Shown in pieces: positions 5,854 to 64,000 of a stretch of DNA of 64,000 bases. Below the pieces are notes generated by a model. That model searched no databases. It worked only from the letters and a program-made list of their open reading frames with translations, and had not been told where the DNA came from. Position 1 is the first letter of the stretch; each line of letters opens with the position of its first letter. The stretch is from positions 35,700,199-35,764,198 of the forward strand of contig OZ020516.1 in the NCBI GenBank assembly GCA_963971425.1, read 5' to 3'. A program made the translations under genes and the position numbers. This DNA is from Bryoerythrophyllum caledonicum. Lineage: Eukaryota > Streptophyta > Bryopsida > Pottiales > Pottiaceae.

Positions 5854-6797
5854 ATGGCTCCTAGAAGGTCTGACAATCAATGTAGGGCAGTTCTTGAGAT
5901 GTTTGAGCGAGGCAACTCATATGGTGAGATTTCAGCAGTTTTGGGCATTCCTCGAAACACTTCTTTTGACATAGTGCGAAGGTTTTGTGAGAGGGAGAGC
6001 CTAATAGATAAAACTTCATCCGGTAGACCTAGAATTCTTGATGAACGAGGTGACCGTGACATTGTGAGGAGATTAAATGATCCAAATACTAGTATAGCGG
6101 CAACTATAGGAAGAGTGTTATGATCTGAGGGCTTGCAATTGAGTGAAAATACGATTAAAAGGAGTCTTTGGAGGCAAGGGTTGAGAGCATGTGTGAAGAC
6201 CAAGAAGCCACTTTTGACAAAGAAACATCGAGCATGTCGTTTGCAGTGGGCAAAGAAGTGCAAACATGCAGATTGGGAGTTTTGGCTCATGTCATTTTTT
6301 TTTATGAGTCTAAATTCAATCTTTTTGGCTTAGATGGACGTCAGTATTGTTGGAGAAAGAGTGGAGAACGTCTTTTAGATCAGCATGTACAATCTACAGT
6401 CAAACATGGAGGAGGAAACATTATGGTTTGGGGTTGTATGAGTTGGGAAGGAGTTGGCAAGCTTCATTTGATTGAAGGAAAGATGGATAAATATGTATAT
6501 TGCAATATTTTAGAGATGGAACTCATGGGCACTATACAGATGCAAGGTTTAGAAGAGGGTGAGATTATTTTCCAACATGACAATGATCCAAAGCATACTG
6601 CACATTATGTCGTAGATTGGTTGCGTGCTCAAAAATGTCAACTTATTGGACATCCTCCACAATCACCTGACCTCAATTTAATAGAACATCTTTGGAATGA
6701 AGTAGATCGTCGTCTGAGAAGGTCTAAGAAGAAACCCGCTAGTAAAAGTGACTTATGGGAGAAGATCCAAGAAATTTTGGTACGATACAGAGCCTGA
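5854..6797 (+). pseudogene. Tc1-like transposase, broken
   Basis: The frame opens at ATG 5854 with a paired-like helix-turn-helix N-terminus (SYGEISAVLGIPRNT, then SGRPRILDERG) typical of Tc1 transposases. The catalytic part follows: MVWGCMSWEGVGKL, then FQHDNDPKHTA and SPDLNLIEHLWNE, with 34 residues between the second catalytic Asp and the Glu (DD34E). An in-frame TGA interrupts it at 6121-6123, and the frame shifts near a poly-T run at about 6294-6303. At the first catalytic position the sequence reads FYESKFNLFG, with Tyr where the family has Asp. The last frame ends at 6797. It is certainly non-functional; the family assignment is firm from the motifs. Confidence 0.88.
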
Positions 6798-8136: not shown

Positions 8137-9773
8137 TCAATCCGGCAGCAACGTCGACCACGCTTGCTTTTTCTGCATGAGAGACGAAGTATCCAGCATC
8201 TCCACCTCTGGAGATCCCGGCATCATCAGCTCTGGAGATCCCGGCATCATCAGCTCTGGAGATCCCGGCATCATCAGCTCTGGAGATCCCGACTCTTGGC
8301 TGTTGGCAATGTCTCCCAGTTCCAAATCCTCGACCGGCACGCCATGCTTGTCCACGTTCGCAGTCAAGGTGCTGTCGTTGGAGACGTCTGACCCCAACCT
8401 GCTGTCTGAGATGGTCATGTGACACGCCAGCTCCGCCCAGAGGTCTCTGGAGAAGCCGCTGGACTCCGTCATGGTGCTGGAATCACTATTCGAGCGCTGC
8501 AGGCGCGGCAGGGTGGCTAGCTTGGAGTCGAAGGTGTCCAGATCCTCCACGTCCAGGTCAAAGTCGTTGAACTCGATCTGGTCTTGGCGCACCTTCTCCA
8601 GATCGGTGGCGACGTGGGAGACGGGCTCCGGGCCGTCTGCGAGCCAGCTGCTGGATGACTCCGGGAGAACAGCCTCCGCTGCCAGCCGCCGTGGGGAATT
8701 GATAGCCTCCGCCAGCTTCCGTGGCGAGCCAGAGTCTGCCGTGTCGAGTGCGTCGTCTGCAGCGTCGGGTGAGGTTCCTGACGCTGCACTCTCGGTCACT
8801 GAGTGCTCTCCCGTGTTCGGCTTCAGAAGGTGCATTAGCTCCGGCGGGTGGTCGCTGTAGCTATCTGTCATCCAAAAATCTTCTCATTAGCATAGGTAAA
8901 CAGTAGACACGTTTAGAACTTGGACCATTCTGACATATTCTCCTCAGCGAGTTGTAGCTGAAAGGTGTCAAGCCTCAAACTATCGCAGATGCAATGTAGC
9001 CACGTTCGTAAAGATGAAAACTGCTAAGACAGACATGACAGAAACATCCGAAGGAAAACACATCTGCACACACTATCGTAACCAAAAATTGATCAGTGTG
9101 TCGTATCGAGTGGTACGTAACAATGTCTGGAGCTATATAGATTTTAACTTCATTTCCTTGCAAAGCAAAAGGGAAGAGGAGAGGTAGTGAGGAGTTGTGT
9201 ACCTGAGCTAGAAGTGGAGACAGGTTGAAATGCAAGTGGTTTCGGGGCAGGTGCAGTTGGGTCCTTGTCAGGCAAATTGAGGAGCGCATTCGAGCCATAC
9301 AGCACACGTGCAGCTTCATCGTACGCGAGCGCAGCCTCCTCCGCGGTGCCGTAAGTGCCCAACCAGAGACGAGAGCCGCGGTTGGGCTCCCGGATTTCAG
9401 CAACCCACTTGCCCCACGTCCTTTGCCTCACGCCCCGGTAGCTGCATTGAGCATTCTCAGGGCCGCCTTTACCCTTCATGCACCCCTTCTTGGAGCCCTT
9501 GGCCGGCGCCTTCCGGATGGTTTTGCGAGGTCCATGGATCATGCTGAAATCTGCCTGGTCTCCAGCCTGCTGCAGGCCCATCCCGAGCCCCTTTCCTGGA
9601 ATGGCGCCGCCGTTCTGGCTCGCCCACCACGCCAGCGTCTCTGCCACAGTGCTCCCATGCTGCGCGTTCGCCGACGTCGCGCGCTTCCGACGCCGGCCCC
9701 GCGTGAAGTTAATGCTCTGCAGACCCAGCTGCTGCGGTTTATTCCCCGCGTAATCCAGTGTGAACAAGTTTTT
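8137..9773 (-). CDS. DREB2-type AP2/ERF transcription factor (first coding exon not located)
   Basis: Two exons are clear: 9773-9203 and 8864-8137 (stop), joined by a GT-AG intron that splits an Asp codon. The first carries a basic N-terminal region with [11 protein letters not shown], the DREB2-type signature [20 protein letters not shown], and one AP2 domain ([19 protein letters not shown] ... [19 protein letters not shown], about residues 111-168 of this exon). AP2 domains of this class bind DRE/GCC-box promoter elements in the nucleus and act in drought and heat responses. The second exon encodes an acidic, Ser/Pro-rich tail of about 242 residues with three GSPELMMP repeats. The exon at 9773 follows an acceptor (TTTGTAG) and an in-frame stop, and has no ATG near its start, so the start codon must lie in an upstream exon that I could not place. 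Confidence 0.9.
8207..8291 (-). repeat. 24-bp coding tandem repeat in the DREB2-like gene
   Basis: Three exact copies of a 24-bp unit (8207-8230, 8231-8254, 8255-8278) plus a half copy encode GSPELMMP repeats near the C-terminus. The exact DNA identity points to recent expansion. Each unit carries a Ser-Pro site. Confidence 0.95.
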
Positions 9774-54748: not shown

Positions 54749-54764
54749 AAAATGATTGTATCAT

Positions 54765-54850
54765 TGAGCGAGGAGCGAAGCTAGTATGTGAGCGGGGAGC
54801 AAGGAGCAGGGAGTAGGGAGCGGGGAAAATGGGAGCAGAGAGCAAGAACT
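54765..54850. repeat. Purine-rich GGGAGC-type simple repeat
   Basis: Irregular repetition of GGGAGC/GGAGCA words over about 85 bp, after the hypothetical frame. Confidence 0.8.
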
Positions 54851-55258
54851 TGCAAAAATCTCTCTTGAGATTTTTAAAATTCGGTTGTTAAAATATAAAA
54901 ATCATGTAACTACTATTTCTTTAAAAATTAGCAAAAAGATGCCTATGACCGTGTACCACAAGGGGTCCTAAACCGCGAATAAAATATGGATTTGCACATT
55001 TAGAGACGTTGAATCTGGTTTGAAAAAATTCAAAATTTCAAAAGTTTAAGGGGATTGGAATTTATTATTCACTACCTTATTTTTTTACTCAATTGGTGAA
55101 AAGATAAAATTATAAACTTGAAAAAATAAGCTACGGAAGATTTCAAAAACTTGGTAGTGGCCCTTTTCGTCGCACTCCATATTCAAATATAACTCAACGA
55201 ACTTAATACCCAATTTCAAACCCTACAATATAAAGGAAACTACAAATTACTTTCTACA
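54851..55258. other. AT-rich interval without genes
   Basis: Separates two oppositely oriented coding remnants. Nothing recognised. Confidence 0.5.
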
Positions 55259-56727
55259 TCATGGTGATACGTGGCATAAAACCCCAGTTTCTAGAACATG
55301 CTTCACTTCATTGAAGCTAAAGCTCGGGGCATGGATAAACACATCTACTGTGGAATCCAAACTACAGATAATAGTAAAGATGTAGTAAAGATGCTTGCAT
55401 TGGGTCCATTGTCCTCGTTTCCCTAAGGACTTTGTCAACATCTCTTTGAAGTATGGACATGAACAATCTGGAAATGAACCTATAGTGATCAGGTACTGTT
55501 GAGAATTGGGAAGTATACCAGATTCTAGAGTAACGATACATTCAAATCCTGGATGAGGTACCATGGTCACTTGATGAATGCGACACCTGAGGGTGACAGC
55601 TGATGCACAGTTGTTGAGATGTTTTGTTGTAGGAGCCCTCATATTCCTGTGAATATTCTTTCCAGATCTGATCTTAGGATATTCATCAGGGGAATCCATA
55701 GTGGGATGAAAATTCATATCAGGGGTAGGACCTTGACTACCAAAAAGTCATCTTGGAGACATCGCCATACGTTGAGGTAGTTGAAAATCTGCATTCTCGA
55801 GTGCCAAAATTTCTTTCTTCGAAAGATTAGTTCCAATTTTAACTGGCCAGACACTTAGAACATCAGGTTTCGAGAGGACCCACTTGCGTTTGGTGCCCTT
55901 CACACAACGCTTGATGTCGTCATTGCAGAAGAAGAATTGCATGCGCTCCACCTTGTTCTTCTTATAATTGTCCATCATTCCAACATAGGTAGGAGTAGCA
56001 GTGCTTTTGTTGTCTTGCACGATTCTTGCAATACACTTCCTCTTGGTAACTACCAGTAATGCAAAACATGCTTTTGCAGAAGTCTTTGGCAATCTTGCAA
56101 TGTGCCATTGCGACTTATTGCATACAGTCTCCTGAGCGGCAGTAATATGGCTTAAAAGAGATCTCAATGGAGATTGAATCACCTCTGTTGCGATGGGAAC
56201 GGTTTCTTCTTCAGGTACGGTAGAAAGAAACTCCTCGTGAACATTACTCATACTAGGTGCACCCGTACGAGCTCTGGATGTTCTGGTATTGATTCTTGGA
56301 TAGGAATAGTTTACCTTGTCAAGCCGATGGGACTCATGCTCGTCACCTAAAGGCATGTCGGGCTTGCGTTTCTGACTACCAAATACTTCTTCTCCTTCCA
56401 TGTGGAGATGACGAGTGCAAAATTCATCAGCTCCAGGCATTTTTGCTATAGCGTCGTTGAGAACCTTGGGGTTTCCAGAGCGAGAGACAGAGCGTTGGAC
56501 AACCCTTAATAGCAACTCCTCCTTTCCAGGCCCATTGCCTCCACGTTCCCCTTTAAGAAACTGATAATACTTCACCACTTGCATAAATGCCCTAACAAAG
56601 TCATCCACAGTGGCCACATACAAGTCATTACCTCGATTTTTGGACTGCTGGAGCCATTTGTTGTAGACTGTCTCTGCAAGATTGCATGAGGGCATCTCGG
56701 CAAGCTCAGCCTCATTAAGATTCTACA
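55259..56727 (-). pseudogene. SWIM zinc-finger protein of Mutator-like transposase type, with in-frame TGA
   Basis: The minus-strand exon starts after an acceptor (GTGTAG) at about 56727 and reads LNEAELAEMPSCNLAETVYN, then a block of about 330 residues. A TGA at 55750-55748 breaks the frame; the same frame continues to 55259 with GSFPDCSCPYFKEM and QWTQCKHLYYIF. The C-x-C ... C-x-H pattern is a SWIM zinc finger, and the context SCNLAETVYNKW plus a C-terminal SWIM finger is that of Mutator-like (MULE) transposases and their domesticated relatives. No catalytic DDE domain was found upstream, so this is a C-terminal fragment or a lone derived gene. The TGA could be removed by an unseen intron, but no good splice pair was found. 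Confidence 0.7.
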
Positions 56728-57114
56728 CACACGCCATGGAATGAAGGAACAAAGGTGTTATTAACCAATAACATGAAAATTGATGAGCACGAATATTTGG
56801 GCACAAAAATGAATGGTTTCATAAAACATGTTTACGGCTTTCGCTTACCAATTGCATAAAGCCACCCCACTGGCGATTGAACTAGGATAGAACTCGTTTA
56901 CTATATAGAGTGTATTGTTGGTCGAATTCCATTTATGATGACTGCTAAAGCACGTTGAATACATAGAGATGAGAATTGAACGAACAGTTACACAGTAGTA
57001 CAGATTCATCATCCCTATCGGTAGTCTCCATAAAAGGACCAGCAGTTGTGGTGTTTCAATGGAGAGTGATGAGATGGTGATTGTGATCATGTTGATAGGT
57101 GTCTAAGTAGGTGA
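56728..57114. other. Short interval upstream of the SWIM protein exon
   Basis: May contain an intron and upstream exon of the minus-strand SWIM gene. A minus-strand open frame at 57090-56845 has no recognisable motif. Confidence 0.35.
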
Positions 57115-58100
57115 TTGAAAATATATGTACTCAGAGGGGTTCGGTATTCTCTAGTTCAAATGCTTAATGGGCAGTTTAGGTCGCCATCAGCACCAGGTAG
57201 AAGAGGAAGAAGGAAGACTGGATTCAGATTCTCCAGTAGAAAGACCATAACCAGATATAGATTGCAAAAAGAGCTGAAGTTGAGGGAATGTCAGGGAGTT
57301 GGAGAATGTTCAAAGGGGTCAAGCACAAGTGAAGGAAGTAAAAGGATTGAAGAGAGCAATGGAGATGGCGGTGGAGCTTCTGAAACCATTATATCAAATT
57401 TGATGTCTACGGTGAAGGAGTTGAGATTTGAATCAAGTGCATCGGAAGAAAGTCTCGGATCCCAACATATCGCACTGGCTGAGGTAGGTTTTGTCGATTG
57501 CCTTGTGCTTTTGGAATTATTTCATTGTTTAATGAGAATTATACTGTACAAATCTATTGATTTGCATTGGTGCACCATTTTGCGAAATGGACTTCAATTT
57601 AGAGAATTGAAGAAGTAACAACACTATAAACATTGAATCATAAGAAGCTGAATATGTTCATTCCATTTTGCAACTAGATTACAAGAAACTGAGAGGGTGG
57701 ACTTACTGAATATGGAGGCTTGCAATAAATATACTAGATAATACTAGATAGTACAATATCTTTAACGCACATTTAGTGATTGAATTATGTCCTATAATTT
57801 GTCCATTGTCCTCATACATCAACTGCTCCAGTGACCAAGAAAATTAAGTAAATTTAACTAAACTGCGAATAACACCATAGTTCCATGGTCGAGTATAATA
57901 ATTTTGATTCCATAAATAATTTATGAATCATCAAAATAACTTATTATTAGCTAATCACCAGAATGGACTTCTCAAAATTTGGACGGGAAGTCGAATATTC
58001 GGTACTGCAGGATCTAAAAGAATACTATTCGTTATTACTGCGGGTTAATGAGGATGCATCTCAGTTGAAAGTTTGCCATGCACCAATCTTCAAAATGACA
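57115..58100 (+). CDS. Hypothetical protein, possibly two exons
   Basis: A first block to about 57483 (RSPSAPGRRGRRKTGFRFSS, then an acidic Ser/Gly-rich stretch and MSTVKELRFESSASEESL) ends at a donor-like GAG|GTAGGT. A second block at 57961-58100 (DFSKFGREVEYSVLQDLKEY, CHAPIFKMT) begins after CCAG and ends at CAG|GTAACA, so two exons of one gene are plausible. Basic then acidic composition suggests a nuclear protein, but no family was recognised and the 3' end is not defined. Confidence 0.35.
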
Positions 58101-58738
58101 GGTAACAAAATTGGACCGTACTTGAGGGCCTACAAATTCTGTATCATCCGTATCTGCTGAATGAAGTCCGAACACTGAACTGAATGGTCGTCTTCCTTTC
58201 GAGCCGGAAACCCTTGGCCAGGCTAAATGCTCTTTCCCTTACTCAACTCGAGCGACGAAACCCCGAATATCGCTTACTTTTAATCTAATCTTGAGCGTGG
58301 AGATCCCAGAGGTCACAAGCATCTTCATCTCTTCTTTTGTTTTTGCATCAGGTGGTCTTATGGTCGTTCAGCTTCCATGTAGGGTTTGATCATGGCTTTG
58401 CTGACGAAATGAACTGTGATCTATGTGATTCTCAACAGAATGAGGCTCATGCACGGTTGGATTGGTGGGGATGCAGGAGTGTGGTCACAGTAAACGCGGC
58501 GACTGTGCAGCGGCGCAAATTGACTGCCGCTAGGACTTTGCAAACAGGAGCGGCGGTTTCCGCAAGGTACATCATCTCACAAACATTGAACAGCATGTTG
58601 TATTCAAGCCTCACAATTCAGATGCTAGGGTTTGATCGGGCTAAGTTTTTTGATAACTGAATATTGCTTTAAGGCACGTGCTATCACTCGGGAGCCGCCC
58701 GGCGTGAATGGGTCGTCGATTAGGTTGATTTCTTGACA
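58101..58738. other. Interval without recognised gene
   Basis: Contains a few short open frames on the plus strand (for example 58337-58660) without domain signals. It ends at the first copy of the 16-bp palindrome. Confidence 0.4.
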
Positions 58739-58753
58739 GCGTCGGTGCCGACG

Positions 58754-59363
58754 TTTTTCGATCGTGAAGTCTCGTGAGTGTGGATTTGAGAGTTGGGATT
58801 CGTGAGTGTCGCCGACTGAATGTGCGCAGTAGGAGTTCGGATTCGTGAGTGTGGATTCCTGCGTCGTGAAGTCTCGTGAGTGTGGATTCGTGAGTGTCGC
58901 CGACTTCACAAAAATTGGTTGTTTTTATGTGGTCGCCGACTGGTTGTTTTCTATGAAGATAATCGCGTGGTATATCCAACGTATTCCAGAAGTTGACCGG
59001 GAGAGTGAGTGTTTTTCGGGGAGTGACGATGGGGACAGTTGAGTGTTTTCTTCGGGTTGGGCTGGGTCCCCCCGATCACACCGGGCAGCACTCTCGCGAC
59101 CGCATTCAGGCACGTCTCAGAGTTGCCTCTCGTCGCGTCGATCTCCTCATCCTCGCTAAATCTCTGCACACAGAGTCGTGGTGAGCGCGCATTCAATGAC
59201 GAAAACGGGAAGAGATTTTCACAAGAGACTTTCAGATACGATCACAGCGGGTGGTGGGGGACCATATGACAGTGATGAGTCCTCGGGGTGAGTGTGTTGA
59301 TGCTGCTACCAAAGGCATGGAAGGAGTGAAGGAATGGGGGGACGTTCTTTGGAAAGGAATAGC
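58754..59363 (+). other. Putative 5' external transcribed spacer segment of rDNA
   Basis: GC-rich DNA lying directly upstream of the 18S start with subrepeats, unlike the AT-rich surroundings. Its identity as spacer is inferred from position next to the 18S fragment; spacers diverge too fast to recognise from sequence alone. Confidence 0.5.
58763..58905. repeat. Imperfect tandem repeat in the rDNA-spacer-like segment
   Basis: CGTGAAGTCTCGTGAGTGTG occurs at 58763 and 58865; GATTCGTGAGTGTCGCCGAC occurs at 58797 and 58885. GTGAGTGTGG words recur between them. Subrepeats of this kind are common in rDNA external transcribed spacers. Confidence 0.8.
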
Positions 59364-59681
59364 TACCTGGTTGATCCTGCCAGTAGTCATATGCTAGTCT
59401 CAACGATTAAGCCATGCACGTGTATGTATAAACTCTTTGGTACTGTGAAACTGCGAATGGCTCATTAAATCAGTTATAGTTGCTTTGATGGTACGTTGCT
59501 ACTCGGATAACCGTAGAAATTCTGGAGCTAGTACGTGCACAAACTCCCGACTCGGCTCGCCAGGAAGGGACGTTTTTTTTAGATAAAAGGCCGATGCGGG
59601 CTTGCCACATATTGCGGTGAATCATAATAACTTGTCGAATGGCACGGCCTTTTGCGCTGGCGATGATTCATTCAAATTTCT
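59364..59681 (+). pseudogene. 5' fragment of 18S rRNA gene, diverged, with upstream spacer-like sequence
   Basis: Begins with the universal 18S start TACCTGGTTGATCCTGCCAG and contains AACTGCGAATGGCTCATTAA, ATCAGTTATAGTT, ACTCGGATAACCGTAG and AGATAAAAGG, then CATTCAAATTTCT, where it stops abruptly. This covers about the first 320 nt. Many substitutions and small indels relative to the conserved sequence (for example TACGTGCACAAACTCCCG, a poly-T expansion) show that it is a pseudogene. The TATAAACTCTTTGGTACTGT stretch resembles bryophyte 18S as I recall it. The 600 bp upstream (GC-rich, with subrepeats) fit a 5' external transcribed spacer. Confidence 0.88.
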
Positions 59682-60755
59682 AGATCCAGCGTCGGTACCG
59701 ACGCTGATTGTTTTCCGACATACTGCTGCACGATACACCAATATGAACTCACGACTTCAGTTCAAACTTAATGGATGTTATGTGAGTTGGGGCTGATACT
59801 TGAGTGGATTCTTTCTTGAGATGTTGTTATGTGAGAGTTGAATGCATTTCAACCATCCAGGGCGCTGAGTATAAATCGCTGCGTCGGCACCGACACACCA
59901 CTCACCCTGATTTTTATCAATTGATATATCGCATTAGATACATTTGATGTTTCATTGAATGAGTAGTTTTCTTTCACAATATGATCATCTGGTTAGTAAG
60001 TTTTCTTTCTCATGATCATTAGTCTGTCTCATATGGGCTCGTCGGTACCGACGATCTTCCTCAGCAGATCATAAATGCCCAAAAAATGACTCCGGATTAA
60101 TGATAATGCTTCAGAGGGTCCAAGTTCACATTAATGTTTAGTCAAGATGCTGATTTTGCTTTCATTGTATGAATATTTTGTGGAAATGAATAGATTGTAA
60201 GAAGCACCACCATGATCGTCGGTGCCGACGTAGTCATTAAATGTTCTGGTTCCTAGGTTGATAATGAATAGAATGCGTCGGTACCGAAGTGAACTTTGGT
60301 TGGTTCCGTTAAGTTCTAATCTGTTTAGTTCATTTCCTCTATATATTCGCGGCACGATAATTTATTTGTGAATTAGTATCTTCAGGAATCGTACTTGAGG
60401 GAATGAATTGTGATGCTAAAACTGTTGTGTCTGTGTACTCGCAAGTCATTATCGACATCTGTTAAATTAACGAGTGTTATCCAATATTCTGATTTTTTTT
60501 TAAATGTATATAGAGTATATGGCTGCTGTCAGAGTAGCGTCGGTGCCGACGCTATTTTATGGCAGCCCATGCATACCCATTTGAATAAACTATGTATGGA
60601 TTGCTTGAGAACATTTGGAATAATATTGATAGAGTTCTTAGGTTGAGGTTGATTCATTTCTGGTATTTGCCTTTGCTCTCATCTCATTATATTGTCAACC
60701 TTTGTCGAATTGTATTGCTTAGAAACTAATTTTGATGTGACGCAAAATTCAGGTC

Positions 60756-63700
60756 ATGGACCCGTCATCATCTCAACGCTCTACCCGATCACCCGAATTC
60801 TCTGGTGGCACAAGTTCACATCCGGACGCGGATGTTTCGGTGGCGGAAGAGGTGGATTGTCACCTACATCTTAACGAAGATGAGCTTCGTCAACACCAAA
60901 GGTTAAATTGTATCTTTGCCATAGACAGCCTACGCATTGCACCCAAGGCTTCCTCTCGCTTTGATGTGCCGTTGTGCAGGCTTGTGTACAGTACATGCCT
61001 CTTGTCCGACCCACACTGGAGTCGGATATTAAGCGGTTGGAGGCTGAATTTACTCATGGATATCGTCTTGGATCTACCGTGTTTTACGTTTCTCTTTCCA
61101 ATGACCTCGGTGAAGAGTCCTTTGTCACCGAGGAGGATAAAGAAAAACGGGGCCCTTTGTGGAATGCAGCCAATGATTGCTTTGAGTCAAATCTTTTGGC
61201 TACTCCCCAGTTGAGCTTCTTGAAGAATCGTAAACTCTTCATATGTGATGGAAATCATCGGTTTAAGGCATGGATGGGATATATTGAGAGAATACACAAT
61301 GCTGATGTAAACTGGCACGTCTCCGTGGATTGCATATGTTTGGATATAAAAGGGAGTGTCGGATTGGCCCTCCATGCTATGCACAATATTAACAGGTGAG
61401 CATCATTCACTAAGTCCTTGCAATATTCATTCGGTAATTGCATCCTTGATTCATTGTTTGATTTTTGATTCTACTGTCTTTGTGTAGAGCCACAGAAAAC
61501 TCACACGTCAAGACCAACTTCGTGCACATACTCCATCGAATTAAGGCGATTGGAAGTCAACCACTTGAATCATTCAAGGATTTGTTGACATCAGAGGATT
61601 ATCACAAGTGCTTGGCTAATCCTGGGAGATGGAAGTCATGGTATCCATTAACAGTTGATGTCTTCGTCTCTCTACTCTTTCGGGTAAGTATTTTCACTTT
61701 CAAGTTTTTTGGTTGTACATGTATGCATTTACTGGTAATTTCTTTTATTCTTATTTATTAATTATGTTTGATATGGAGTTATATCGTTTCTCACCTCTTT
61801 AGCAATTGCTGTTGGACCTCAGCAAGAGATTGCTGATGCATCAGATGAAGCTGCCAGAGTGTACCACGAAAATACTCCTGTGGAACTTCGGATTGACTCT
61901 GAGATTACCACATCTATGCGAGCTGCAGCAAAGGCAAAAATTCAGATGTACAAGGGTCAGTGGTCTAAATATTCGGCCGTTGCAAATCCAAAGCTTGGTG
62001 ACCAGTTCCTTGAAGAGGTAAAAATGATTCTTGAGTATATTTGATATTTCATTTGAAGTGATACACCTACATAGAGTGATTATTCAAAATAATTTCTCTT
62101 CTTATATTTTCAGATTATAAAGCATTGGAGTTCGAATTCAAAGCTTGAGATGACTTTGGATAAGTTACAGTTGATTGCAACTTCCAATGTCCCACCCCAT
62201 TTCAAAGTTCGATGGCTTCAGTGGTGGAATTCTAGCAATGCCACTAGGGAAGCTCTCCACTTTCCTCCGAAAGGATTCAGCTATAAGGAGTTAGACTTGT
62301 GGTTAAACAAGGCATCCTTTTGGGCCAGAGTAAGTTCTGTTTAGCAAATTTCTTTATTTCTGTGAATTTAGTTCATCATATTTTGGAATCAGTTCGTTCA
62401 TAAAATGCTTTCAACCCAGTTGAGCAAGTTAATGTTGCAAAATTTGATCATTGTAGCTTGAAGTCGCCGTCACTGAGGAGTTTGAGAGTGTACTTATAGC
62501 CGACAAGCTGCCGCTGAAGTTGGACCTACCGGAGAGACCTCGATCTCCACAAGAGTATGTGGAGGCATCGAGGGTTAAACTTTGGGTGCATGCCTTTCCA
62601 ACACTCTTAAGAAGCAAGACCACATTCTCAAGGTCAAAGGAATTTAAGAACCACAAGAATATTGACTTGGCTGTGAAGCGAGTTGTTTGGAGGTGAGAGG
62701 GGTATTTTAGTGATATCAATTACAAATCATTGCCTTTAATTTATTTATCTAAATGTGTTATTGCAACTTACACGTATTATATGAAAGAGCTCTTTGTTAA
62801 GGGTGCCCTTGAAAGACATCAGCTTCCATTGTTTCTTCAGACATGGATTGATAAAAATTCATCGCATTGTATGTTCACTCCTACTCAGCTTCAATCGTGG
62901 TCAACTTTGTATTTAAATGATGGATGTTGGTATCTCGATTGCACGAAGCCTTTTTGTCCATCTGAGGAGGAAGCGGCAAAGGCTTCTCATGACAAATCCG
63001 AGGTATCTGGAGTGGTTGGTGCCACCACTCAAACCACTGTTGACCTCAGTGATGAGGATATGGACACCGCTGGCGGGAGTACATTATCTGGGAAAGAGCA
63101 GTTGAAGGTCCTTTCTAAGCGCGCCAAGGAGGCTGAGAGAGAAGATCAAAGGAAAAAAAAAGAAGTAAGGCGGGCTATGGAGAAAGCTCGAAGGGCTGCC
63201 GAATTGGCTACTGCGAAGGCAAAGGAGGCAGAGGCAAAGGCAGTAGCTCTTGGCTCAGCAAGATCTGGCACTCTAGGAGATAGCCCCTCAACTGTTGGTG
63301 TGAGTCCAACCTCCTCAGATTCTTTACCTTGTCTGCATTTGAAGCGAGATGCTACATTTGCAGGGCTATCAATGTCACGGTTGGTTCAAGGTATTTCCCA
63401 TGCACTTAAAGACATTGTGCAAGATACACAATTTGTTGATGAGTGCATTATTAATGCCTCGCTGATGTCCATTGATGCACACCTTTCCAAGTTCAAGTCT
63501 TTTCCATCGGCATGGACAAACTTGCGGGCCTTCGTCGATAAGGTACTTTATTTTCATTATTTCTGTTATATTTTTGTCCATTCATTAATTGATAGTCAAT
63601 CTAATTACTATTTTTATTCCAGCACAAGCTTGATCGCCCTCGACATTTCTCAGGTCGTCCAGAGAAGACTTTTGGTGTTGATTTGATGGTTGTGGATATT

Positions 63701-63961
63701 CCGGAGAACTTGCCAGTTCCAAATATTTCCACGTCTATTCCGGCGTGGAATGTTTTGGATGAGAGCTTTGTGGATTTGATTTTTGACTTTGCCAACAATC
63801 ACATTCATGACGATGGCGGCTTACTTCTCTTTCATGCTGATGATCAAAGTCTGAACTCCAAGTTGAAGGGCTTTATGAGAGCTTATCATTTCAAGATTTT
63901 CAAGGAGTGGATGGGTGTCAATCGGTTGCGTTTGACAAGTGCCAAGGATCCATCAAAAACT
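60756..63961 (+). CDS. ParB/sulfiredoxin-like and methyltransferase-like fusion protein, partial and with frame breaks
   Basis: The ATG at 60756 follows an acceptor (TTCAG), so a leader exon lies upstream. Exons: 60756-61395, 61488-61683, 61803-62017, 62114-62329, 62457-63542, 63623-63961 (continues past the window), about 900 codons. The N-terminal part has YMPLVRPTLESDIKRLEAEF and then FICDGNHRFKAWMGYIE, like the conserved (D/G)GNHR loop of ParB/sulfiredoxin-fold domains. The middle is helical with a Lys/Glu/Ala-rich coiled coil near 63,100-63,250 (SKRAKEAEREDQRKKKEVRR). The C-terminal part (FGVDLMVVDIPENLPVP ... WNVLDESFVDLIFDF ... HDDGGLLLFHADD) resembles amino-methyltransferase folds, with DIPE where active enzymes have DPPY/DPPW. 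Breaks: the frame changes near 60,970, the 61683/61803 junction is out of frame by one base, and TGA occurs at 62694-62696. Domain names are inferred from motifs only. Confidence 0.55.
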
Positions 63962-64000
63962 GTAAGTATCCTAAATTATATAGTTTTTTAATCCTTCTAT

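Follow-up and report, generated by a model that had tools for sequence, protein, structure and literature searches.

The analysed sequence is a 64,000-nucleotide stretch of contig C3, hereafter the window, taken from a moss genome that was searched in full (437 Mb, 894 contigs). Towards its end lies an element of 11,013 bp, running from 54773 to about 65785, of which at least two dozen close relatives were found. Most genome matches begin at 54773 and end at L038:1984, the window-equivalent of 65785, or no more than a few bases from it, and perfect target-site duplications of 10-11 bp flank nine of the 11 family-A copies, the window included; one further copy has an 8-bp duplication and one has none. 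Duplications of 10-11 bp were also present at both mapped copies of another family, referred to by its site as CTTCGG. Judged by eye, the two termini share an imperfect similarity of about 30 bp in family-A and CTTCGG-family copies alike. In the available text of PMC6446971, Mutator-like elements are described as having target-site duplications of 8-11 bp, and some of them as having no terminal inverted repeats. Our assignment of the element as putatively Mutator-like rests on the duplications, on the ends and on a SWIM-like motif recognised by eye in the transposase-like gene.

The element carries two genes on opposite strands, with a series of palindromes between them (Table 1). Of the transposase-like gene a C-terminal remnant is left, and no transposase family was matched in a Pfam scan of this remnant and the transposase-like pieces of loci L059 and L117. 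Six other copies for which both sides are listed contain about 2.47 kb more at window positions 56868-56876, and in L059, one of the six, this stretch holds additional transposase-like exons. Among the copies listed, uninterrupted sequence at this point is confined to the window copy and a 98-99% sibling at C3:24.16M, and the junction of these shortened copies shows an 8-bp overlap. Highly similar element copies on C839, C843 and at C2:2.97M gave matches equal in length and near-equal in score, which suggests that C839 and C843 on the one hand and the C2 region on the other are duplicate haplotype contigs in the assembly.

Table 1. Features of the element and their positions in the window
Feature	Position	Strand	Remarks
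Left copy of 10-bp target-site duplication ATTGAGCGAG	54763..54772	.	right copy outside the window, at window-equivalent 65786
Putative Mutator-like element	54773..64000, continues past window to about 65785	+	sharp homology edges, target-site duplication
Transposase-like gene, C-terminal remnant	55259..56695	-	SWIM-like cysteines and histidine by eye
Palindrome 1	58740..58753	.	CGTCGG-TG-CCGACG
Degenerate 5' part of 18S rRNA	59420..59786	+	Rfam model positions 57-388; same orientation as gene
Palindrome 2	59690..59703	.	CGTCGG-TA-CCGACG; flanking bases also palindromic
Palindrome 3	59882..59895	.	one outer base unequal between arms
Palindrome 4	60040..60053	.	CGTCGG-TA-CCGACG; 16 bp perfect
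Palindrome 5	60217..60230	.	CGTCGG-TG-CCGACG
Palindrome 6	60276..60289	.	one base unequal between arms; lowest conservation of the seven in family A
Palindrome 7	60538..60551	.	CGTCGG-TG-CCGACG
Second gene of the element	60756..64000, continues past window	+	many exons; broken in window copy
Exon 2 with DGNHR motif	60986..61396	+
Exon 8, first half of N6/N4 DNA-methyltransferase-like domain	63623..63961	+	DIPE at expected DPPY

The palindrome cluster forms the mid-part of the element and brackets a piece resembling 18S rDNA. A pattern scan of the window returned the seven clustered copies of a 14-bp core that an earlier sequence-only reading had reported. In five of them the match to CGTCGGTRCCGACG is exact on one strand or both, and those at 59882 and 60276 each deviate by a single mismatch on the better strand; the two perfect 16-bp palindromes that it had counted among the seven are the sites at 59690 and 60040. 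Copies 2 to 7, which had been placed within 870 bp, directly upstream of a gene, occupy 862 bp, and the last of them ends 205 bp ahead of the ATG at 60756. With up to two mismatches allowed, the window contains 14 strand-wise matches at seven places against a mean of 0.12 in 100 shuffles. These shuffles, together with the clustering across the genome relative to a reversed-pattern control, exclude a chance origin of the cluster, as had been argued from the sequence. A terminal repeat was also rejected for family A, the element ends and target-site duplications lying about 4 kb or more from the sites.

The limits of the 18S piece in Table 1 are those of the Rfam match; by eye, the similarity extends over about 59363-59682. 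Rfam 18S pieces occur in 4 of 20 further stretches, namely L013 and L020 (both family A), L087 (model positions 4-605, at 1366-2138 of the locus) and L083 (model positions 1-1425, at 997-2431, where the match runs into exon 2 and its 3' limit is unreliable). A segment of L115 (1233-1487) aligns with window 59309-59562 at 88%. Several element families thus have such pieces, of differing length, upstream of the second gene, and in family A, L083, L087 and L115 their orientation is that of the gene. Bryophyte rDNA escapes methylation according to the available text of PMC6739443, and it might be speculated that an rDNA start helps to keep the region open.

Association and conservation of the sites

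The sequence-only reading proposed counting the core on both strands across the genome and looking for clustering near homologs of the downstream gene. The count is 132 forward and 116 reverse matches, against 15 and 13 for the reversed-pattern control. The listed matches, 100 rows reaching up to C6:10.5M, comprise 81 distinct exact sites, and 78 of these precede exon 2 of a gene from family A, B or C by 0.4-3.8 kb, so that all lie within 5 kb upstream of a homolog; the remaining three are one site 5.4 kb upstream of an exon 2 and two lone sites. Seen from the gene, none of the 21 listed A, B and C exon-2 matches on contigs C1-C4 lacks an exact site upstream. Two contrary outcomes had been named beforehand, an even spread of the core and its membership of a known satellite or transposon end with no link to the gene family. 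Although the core is part of a transposon, it is clustered and linked to this gene family, and in the window's element it is no terminal repeat.

Within family A, the seven sites are more conserved than the DNA around them, with a mean identity of 92.3% against 83.5% in the other columns, a difference matched by 1 of 10,000 random draws (22-25 copies aligned at six sites and eight at site 6). Six of the seven exceed their own flanks, the exception being site 6 at 60276 (75% against 83% in the eight family-A copies). CpG was retained in 91% of cells inside the sites against 73% outside, with other dinucleotides differing alike. When the upstream regions of A, B and C loci (one, five and three) were compared by blastn (E 1e-4, word size 9), they matched only at the coding start, whereas the B and C loci each keep 6-8 sites with at most two mismatches. 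Plain homology of young copies was rejected as an explanation, as B and C hold the sites without other alignable upstream DNA. The conservation, the comparison with B and C and the constant spacer of 2 bp support the earlier suggestion of a constrained site at which a dimer binds, linked to the gene downstream.

More distant families have site clusters of their own with different outer bases. When the 2.4-kb regions upstream of 20 further genes (families C, D, E and G) were included, a shared grammar emerged, NN-TCGG-NN-CCGA-NN. Families A, B and C use CG-TCGG-NN-CCGA-CG, the family-A version of the palindrome being CGTCGGNNCCGACG, and beside it stand TC, CT and CC versions: TC-TCGG-NN-CCGA-GA in 3 of 4 D loci, 5 of 7 E loci and L091; CT or TT-TCGG-TG-CCGA-AG in L087, L088 and L092; and CC-TCGG-TA-CCGA-GG in L089 and L090. 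L082 has AG-TCGG-CT-CCGA-CT. In total, 26 upstream regions (64,120 bp; one A, five B and the 20 further ones) contain 140 TCGGNNCCGA cores where 0.3 are expected, and none was present in 89,359 bp of controls made up of the rest of the window, flank, A and B gene bodies and transposase region.

The spacer of these cores is fixed and their centre varies between sites. Across 34 stretches, 196 cores have a spacer of 2 bp, and every other spacer from 0 to 8 was found 0-3 times. The outer pairs are symmetric in 95 of the 140 cores, and among 43 distinct cores, 14 have fully symmetric outer pairs against a mean of 5.6 and a maximum of 13 in 10,000 shuffles. Some loci depart from this pattern, as L087 and L088 have four cores each and L083 has two, none of them with a fully symmetric outer pair, and L077 has no core within 2.4 kb, its listed sites being 7.6-9.6 kb upstream. 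In L091, a 115-bp tandem array carries fifteen TCTCGG-GC-CCGAGA palindromes upstream of a family member on contig C62. The closest relatives of L091 are on small contigs (C400, C624 and C215).

The outer bases were compared with an exon-2 protein tree of 26 loci, two of them without a label and L091 and L082 representing single odd variants. The arm labels, fixed before the tree was made, require seven changes in all against a shuffled mean of 14.7, a value as low being reached in 0 of 200 shuffles; near-copies make labels cluster, so that the number of independent changes is small. The CG, CC and CT/TT labels account for one change each (support 86/90, 100/93 and 94/91), and the TC label for three. 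The outer bases are mostly symmetric and largely follow the tree of the second-gene protein.

Other versions of the palindrome are likewise enriched across the genome, with 980 matches to TCTCGGNNCCGAGA against 21 for the reversed control, and 64 forward and 59 reverse matches to CTTCGGTRCCGAAG against 1 and 3. Their positions were compared with 163 listed exon-2 places, proximity being defined as at most 10.5 kb upstream or 6 kb downstream. Near such a place are 31 of 50 listed TC (TCTCGG) sites, all on C1, with 19 elsewhere, and 52 of 78 listed CT (CTTCGG) sites, with 26 elsewhere. Of the 52, 31 form one belt 0.65-3.1 kb upstream of exon 2 and 10 form another at 8.8-9.5 kb on the same side, whereas the other 11 make up a third belt, 3.9-4.6 kb downstream.

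Three TC clusters away from any listed exon 2 were opened, and a relative of the gene was found in all three. The edge of L115 contains part of a more distant exon 2, which is preceded by 13 cores; besides the 18S-like piece described above, the locus also has a 106-bp tandem array of 7.2 units that includes sites. L116 and L117 both have a methylase-like exon and transposase-like frames recognised by eye, and L117 matches the transposase-like part of the window at 56579-56724; no exon 2 was found in either within the 5 kb taken.

The second-gene protein

Exon 2 of the gene is abundant, with more than 200 places in the genome listings. Its DGNHR motif is invariant across the 11 sequences of alignment A1 and is found in 25 of the 26 tree sequences, L086 having DRNHR. 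The 'ParB-like motif' described by the sequence-only reading thus exists as a motif, but searches of exon 2 against Pfam, PHROGs, NCBIfam and PDB profiles gave no match to ParB. A single-sequence structure prediction of exon 2 was unusable (pLDDT 38), and none of 102 pattern matches in viral contigs was confirmed as a relative.

The other end of the protein resembles DNA methyltransferases. The window protein scores 21.9 bits against PF01555, under the cut-off of 26.7; its last exons match PHROGs DNA methyltransferases (8e-6 and 2.2e-5) and NCBIfam CcrM (0.0016, far under the model's curated cut-off). A PF01555 search of the genome, with 150 of 235 candidates scored, gave eight places, all over the cut-off at 28.4-30.6 bits, and L113 and L114, the two of these that were examined, gave alignments with the window protein in a five-locus search (E 2e-19 and 1.5e-19). 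DPPY is the catalytic motif of N6/N4 DNA methyltransferases. At this position family A has DIPE, family B DVLE and L113/L114 DQPF, and catalysis is therefore doubtful. Outside the methylase-like part no DNA-binding domain was recognised, and scans of the exons and of spliced parts, run separately, detected neither DUF1985 nor DUF287.

Exon 2 of families B and C has 78% and 66% protein identity to that of family A. Between A and B, dS is 1.75 in exon 2 and 0.96 in exon 8, with dN/dS of 0.08 and 0.10, respectively; dS is saturated in three other exons. The window copy has a frame change between exons 1 and 2 (60902-60990) relative to other copies, because of which its exon-2 open frame is 144 codons; its sibling also has 144, against 201-222 in most other full-length family-A matches. 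An in-frame stop is present in an exon beyond the window and is shared with L071 of family A, where family B and L072 (family A) are open. Being broken, the window copy can therefore only be a target.

Candidate function of the palindromes

We consider it about an even chance (probability roughly 0.5) that the palindromes are cognate recognition sites, bound by a dimer of a DNA-binding protein that the same transposon encodes and that would act in anti-silencing in the manner of VANC. The fixed spacer, with arms that change together in most families, points to a protein dimer in which each subunit reads one half-site, and the position of the sites beside the second gene, together with the agreement with its tree, makes the product of this gene the first candidate binder and the transposase the second. 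From the observed element, gene, sites and match between site and protein families we infer binding, dimerisation, loss of catalysis and anti-silencing. A homodimer of the second-gene product would recognise the sites, its methylase fold perhaps serving as a sequence reader after catalysis was lost, and protein and site may have diverged together. Binding at many sites would protect the control region of the element from host silencing and so keep it open, in the way VANC acts on VANDAL elements; alternatively, it may switch on the two divergent genes of the element.

The transposase and the second gene travel together, and agreement with the exon-2 tree can therefore not tell which of the two products binds. 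It is conceivable, if doubtful, that the palindromes are family-specific sites of the transposase or transpososome, used in pairing the ends or in self-repression, since a transposase and sites on the same element would co-diverge. In some families, sites are also found downstream of exon 2 or near element ends; in the two mapped copies of the CTTCGG family, the outer ones lie 0.96 kb from the 5' end and about 0.5 kb from the 3' end, as expected of transposase sites, and L116 and L117 have kept sites although the 5 kb taken showed no exon 2. In family A, however, not one of the seven sites lies close to an end, the nearest in the window copy being about 4 kb from the 5' edge, the rest of the window's element contains no core, and in the upstream regions read the main cluster precedes the second gene. 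The upstream position, the multiple copies and the conservation would also suit promoter elements bound by host transcription factors, a different one for each family, for strong expression. This is distinctly unlikely, as divergence within one protein family accounts better than several host factors for a single grammar in which the 2-bp spacer is constant and the outer bases are specific to each family, and with only 3 of the 81 listed CGTCGG sites outside the 5 kb upstream of the gene, no host gene set is visible.

Methylase sites are typically short palindromes, and the sites have an adenine and a cytosine on both strands. Given the methyltransferase-like C-terminus, the element could mark itself with 6mA or 4mC through an N6/N4-type methyltransferase of its own; we regard this as improbable, the replaced catalytic tetrapeptide arguing against catalysis. 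Inverted repeats in a region that may be transcribed could also act as RNA hairpins or small-RNA sources, and a hairpin had been the alternative offered by the sequence-only reading. A spacer of 2 bp leaves no room for the loop, on which ground we discard the RNA hairpin, and the centre varies between sites; any role of transcribed palindromes is very improbable. An unlikely but more far-reaching variant is that plant Mutator-like elements have turned a bacterial- or phage-type ParB-methylase fusion to self-recognition. Its dimer would load at clustered, family-specific parS-like palindromes, spread along the element and shield it from DNA methylation, and the 18S piece, which several families carry in the gene's orientation, would be a further way to remain open.

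Bacterial ParB proteins bind parS, palindromic sites of about 16 bp clustered beside the gene. The moss palindromes, also about 16 bp and clustered beside a gene with a ParB-type motif, would be comparable, although the site sequence is another, no ParA was seen and the likeness to a ParB fold consists of a resemblance in the motif. By eye, the N-terminal side of the second-gene protein carries the ParB-type DGxHR, as in the ParB-methylase fusions of bacteria and phages. The fusion Bce_0392 of Bacillus cereus, as far as it is described in the available text of PMC5512222, has a DNA methylase on the C-terminal side, where the moss protein is methylase-like. Unlike such fusions, the moss protein is encoded by a multi-exon gene of a plant transposon, has a changed catalytic tetrapeptide and a middle region without known domain, and matches no ParB profile.

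Reading the palindromes as recognition sites of the element's own protein finds its nearest parallel in anti-silencing by VANDAL elements and their VANC proteins in Arabidopsis (PMC5735166, PMC10398659, available text). VANC21 is described there as a protein that recognises densely spaced motifs in the noncoding DNA (intronic, intergenic and terminal) of its own family and removes DNA methylation at these places, and VANC targets as lying in tandem arrays (PMC5735166). The moss element similarly appears to be of Mutator type with an extra gene beside the transposase, has a dense short motif in noncoding DNA that differs between related families, and shows tandem-repeat expansion of sites, here in L091 and L115 (compare PMC5735166). 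In contrast, VANC has DUF1985 and DUF287 where the moss protein has neither and ends in a methylase-like part, and the VANC motif copies stand in one orientation in the available account (PMC5735166), whereas the moss sites are palindromic, with arms that vary around a common core.

Our verdict, as far as sequence comparison can carry it, is that the sites probably constitute a conserved system of palindromic addresses, each specific to a family of Mutator-like elements, with a logic like that of VANDAL/VANC and another protein and site. To our knowledge, sequence-specific anti-silencing by transposons has been described in detail from one plant group, that of VANDAL/VANC. Among the open-access papers listed in literature searches, none was seen that treats these motifs or a transposon protein of this kind, and among the matches listed for the motif strings in open-access papers only the 10-bp TCGGTACCGA appeared, under unrelated titles. 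The system is apparently independent and would offer, within one genome, a naturally occurring set of protein variants and, matching them, variants of the target, so that the specificity code is directly testable and could yield targetable DNA-binding modules. If the reading is true, it would suggest that private addresses separate transposon families more often than has been assumed.

MULEs of the Pack-MULE type carry captured host DNA. The moss element resembles them in its 10-bp target-site duplications and the rDNA piece inside it, and differs in the conserved site cluster next to this piece and in the recurrence of the piece across several families.

Elsewhere, the window contains an AP2-domain gene and a p115-type gene, which point to a plant, an ORF with a DDE_3 transposase domain (6168-6797, plus strand, E 1.1e-12), and a perfect 24-bp tandem repeat of 3.6 units at 8206-8291, inside a minus-strand ORF.
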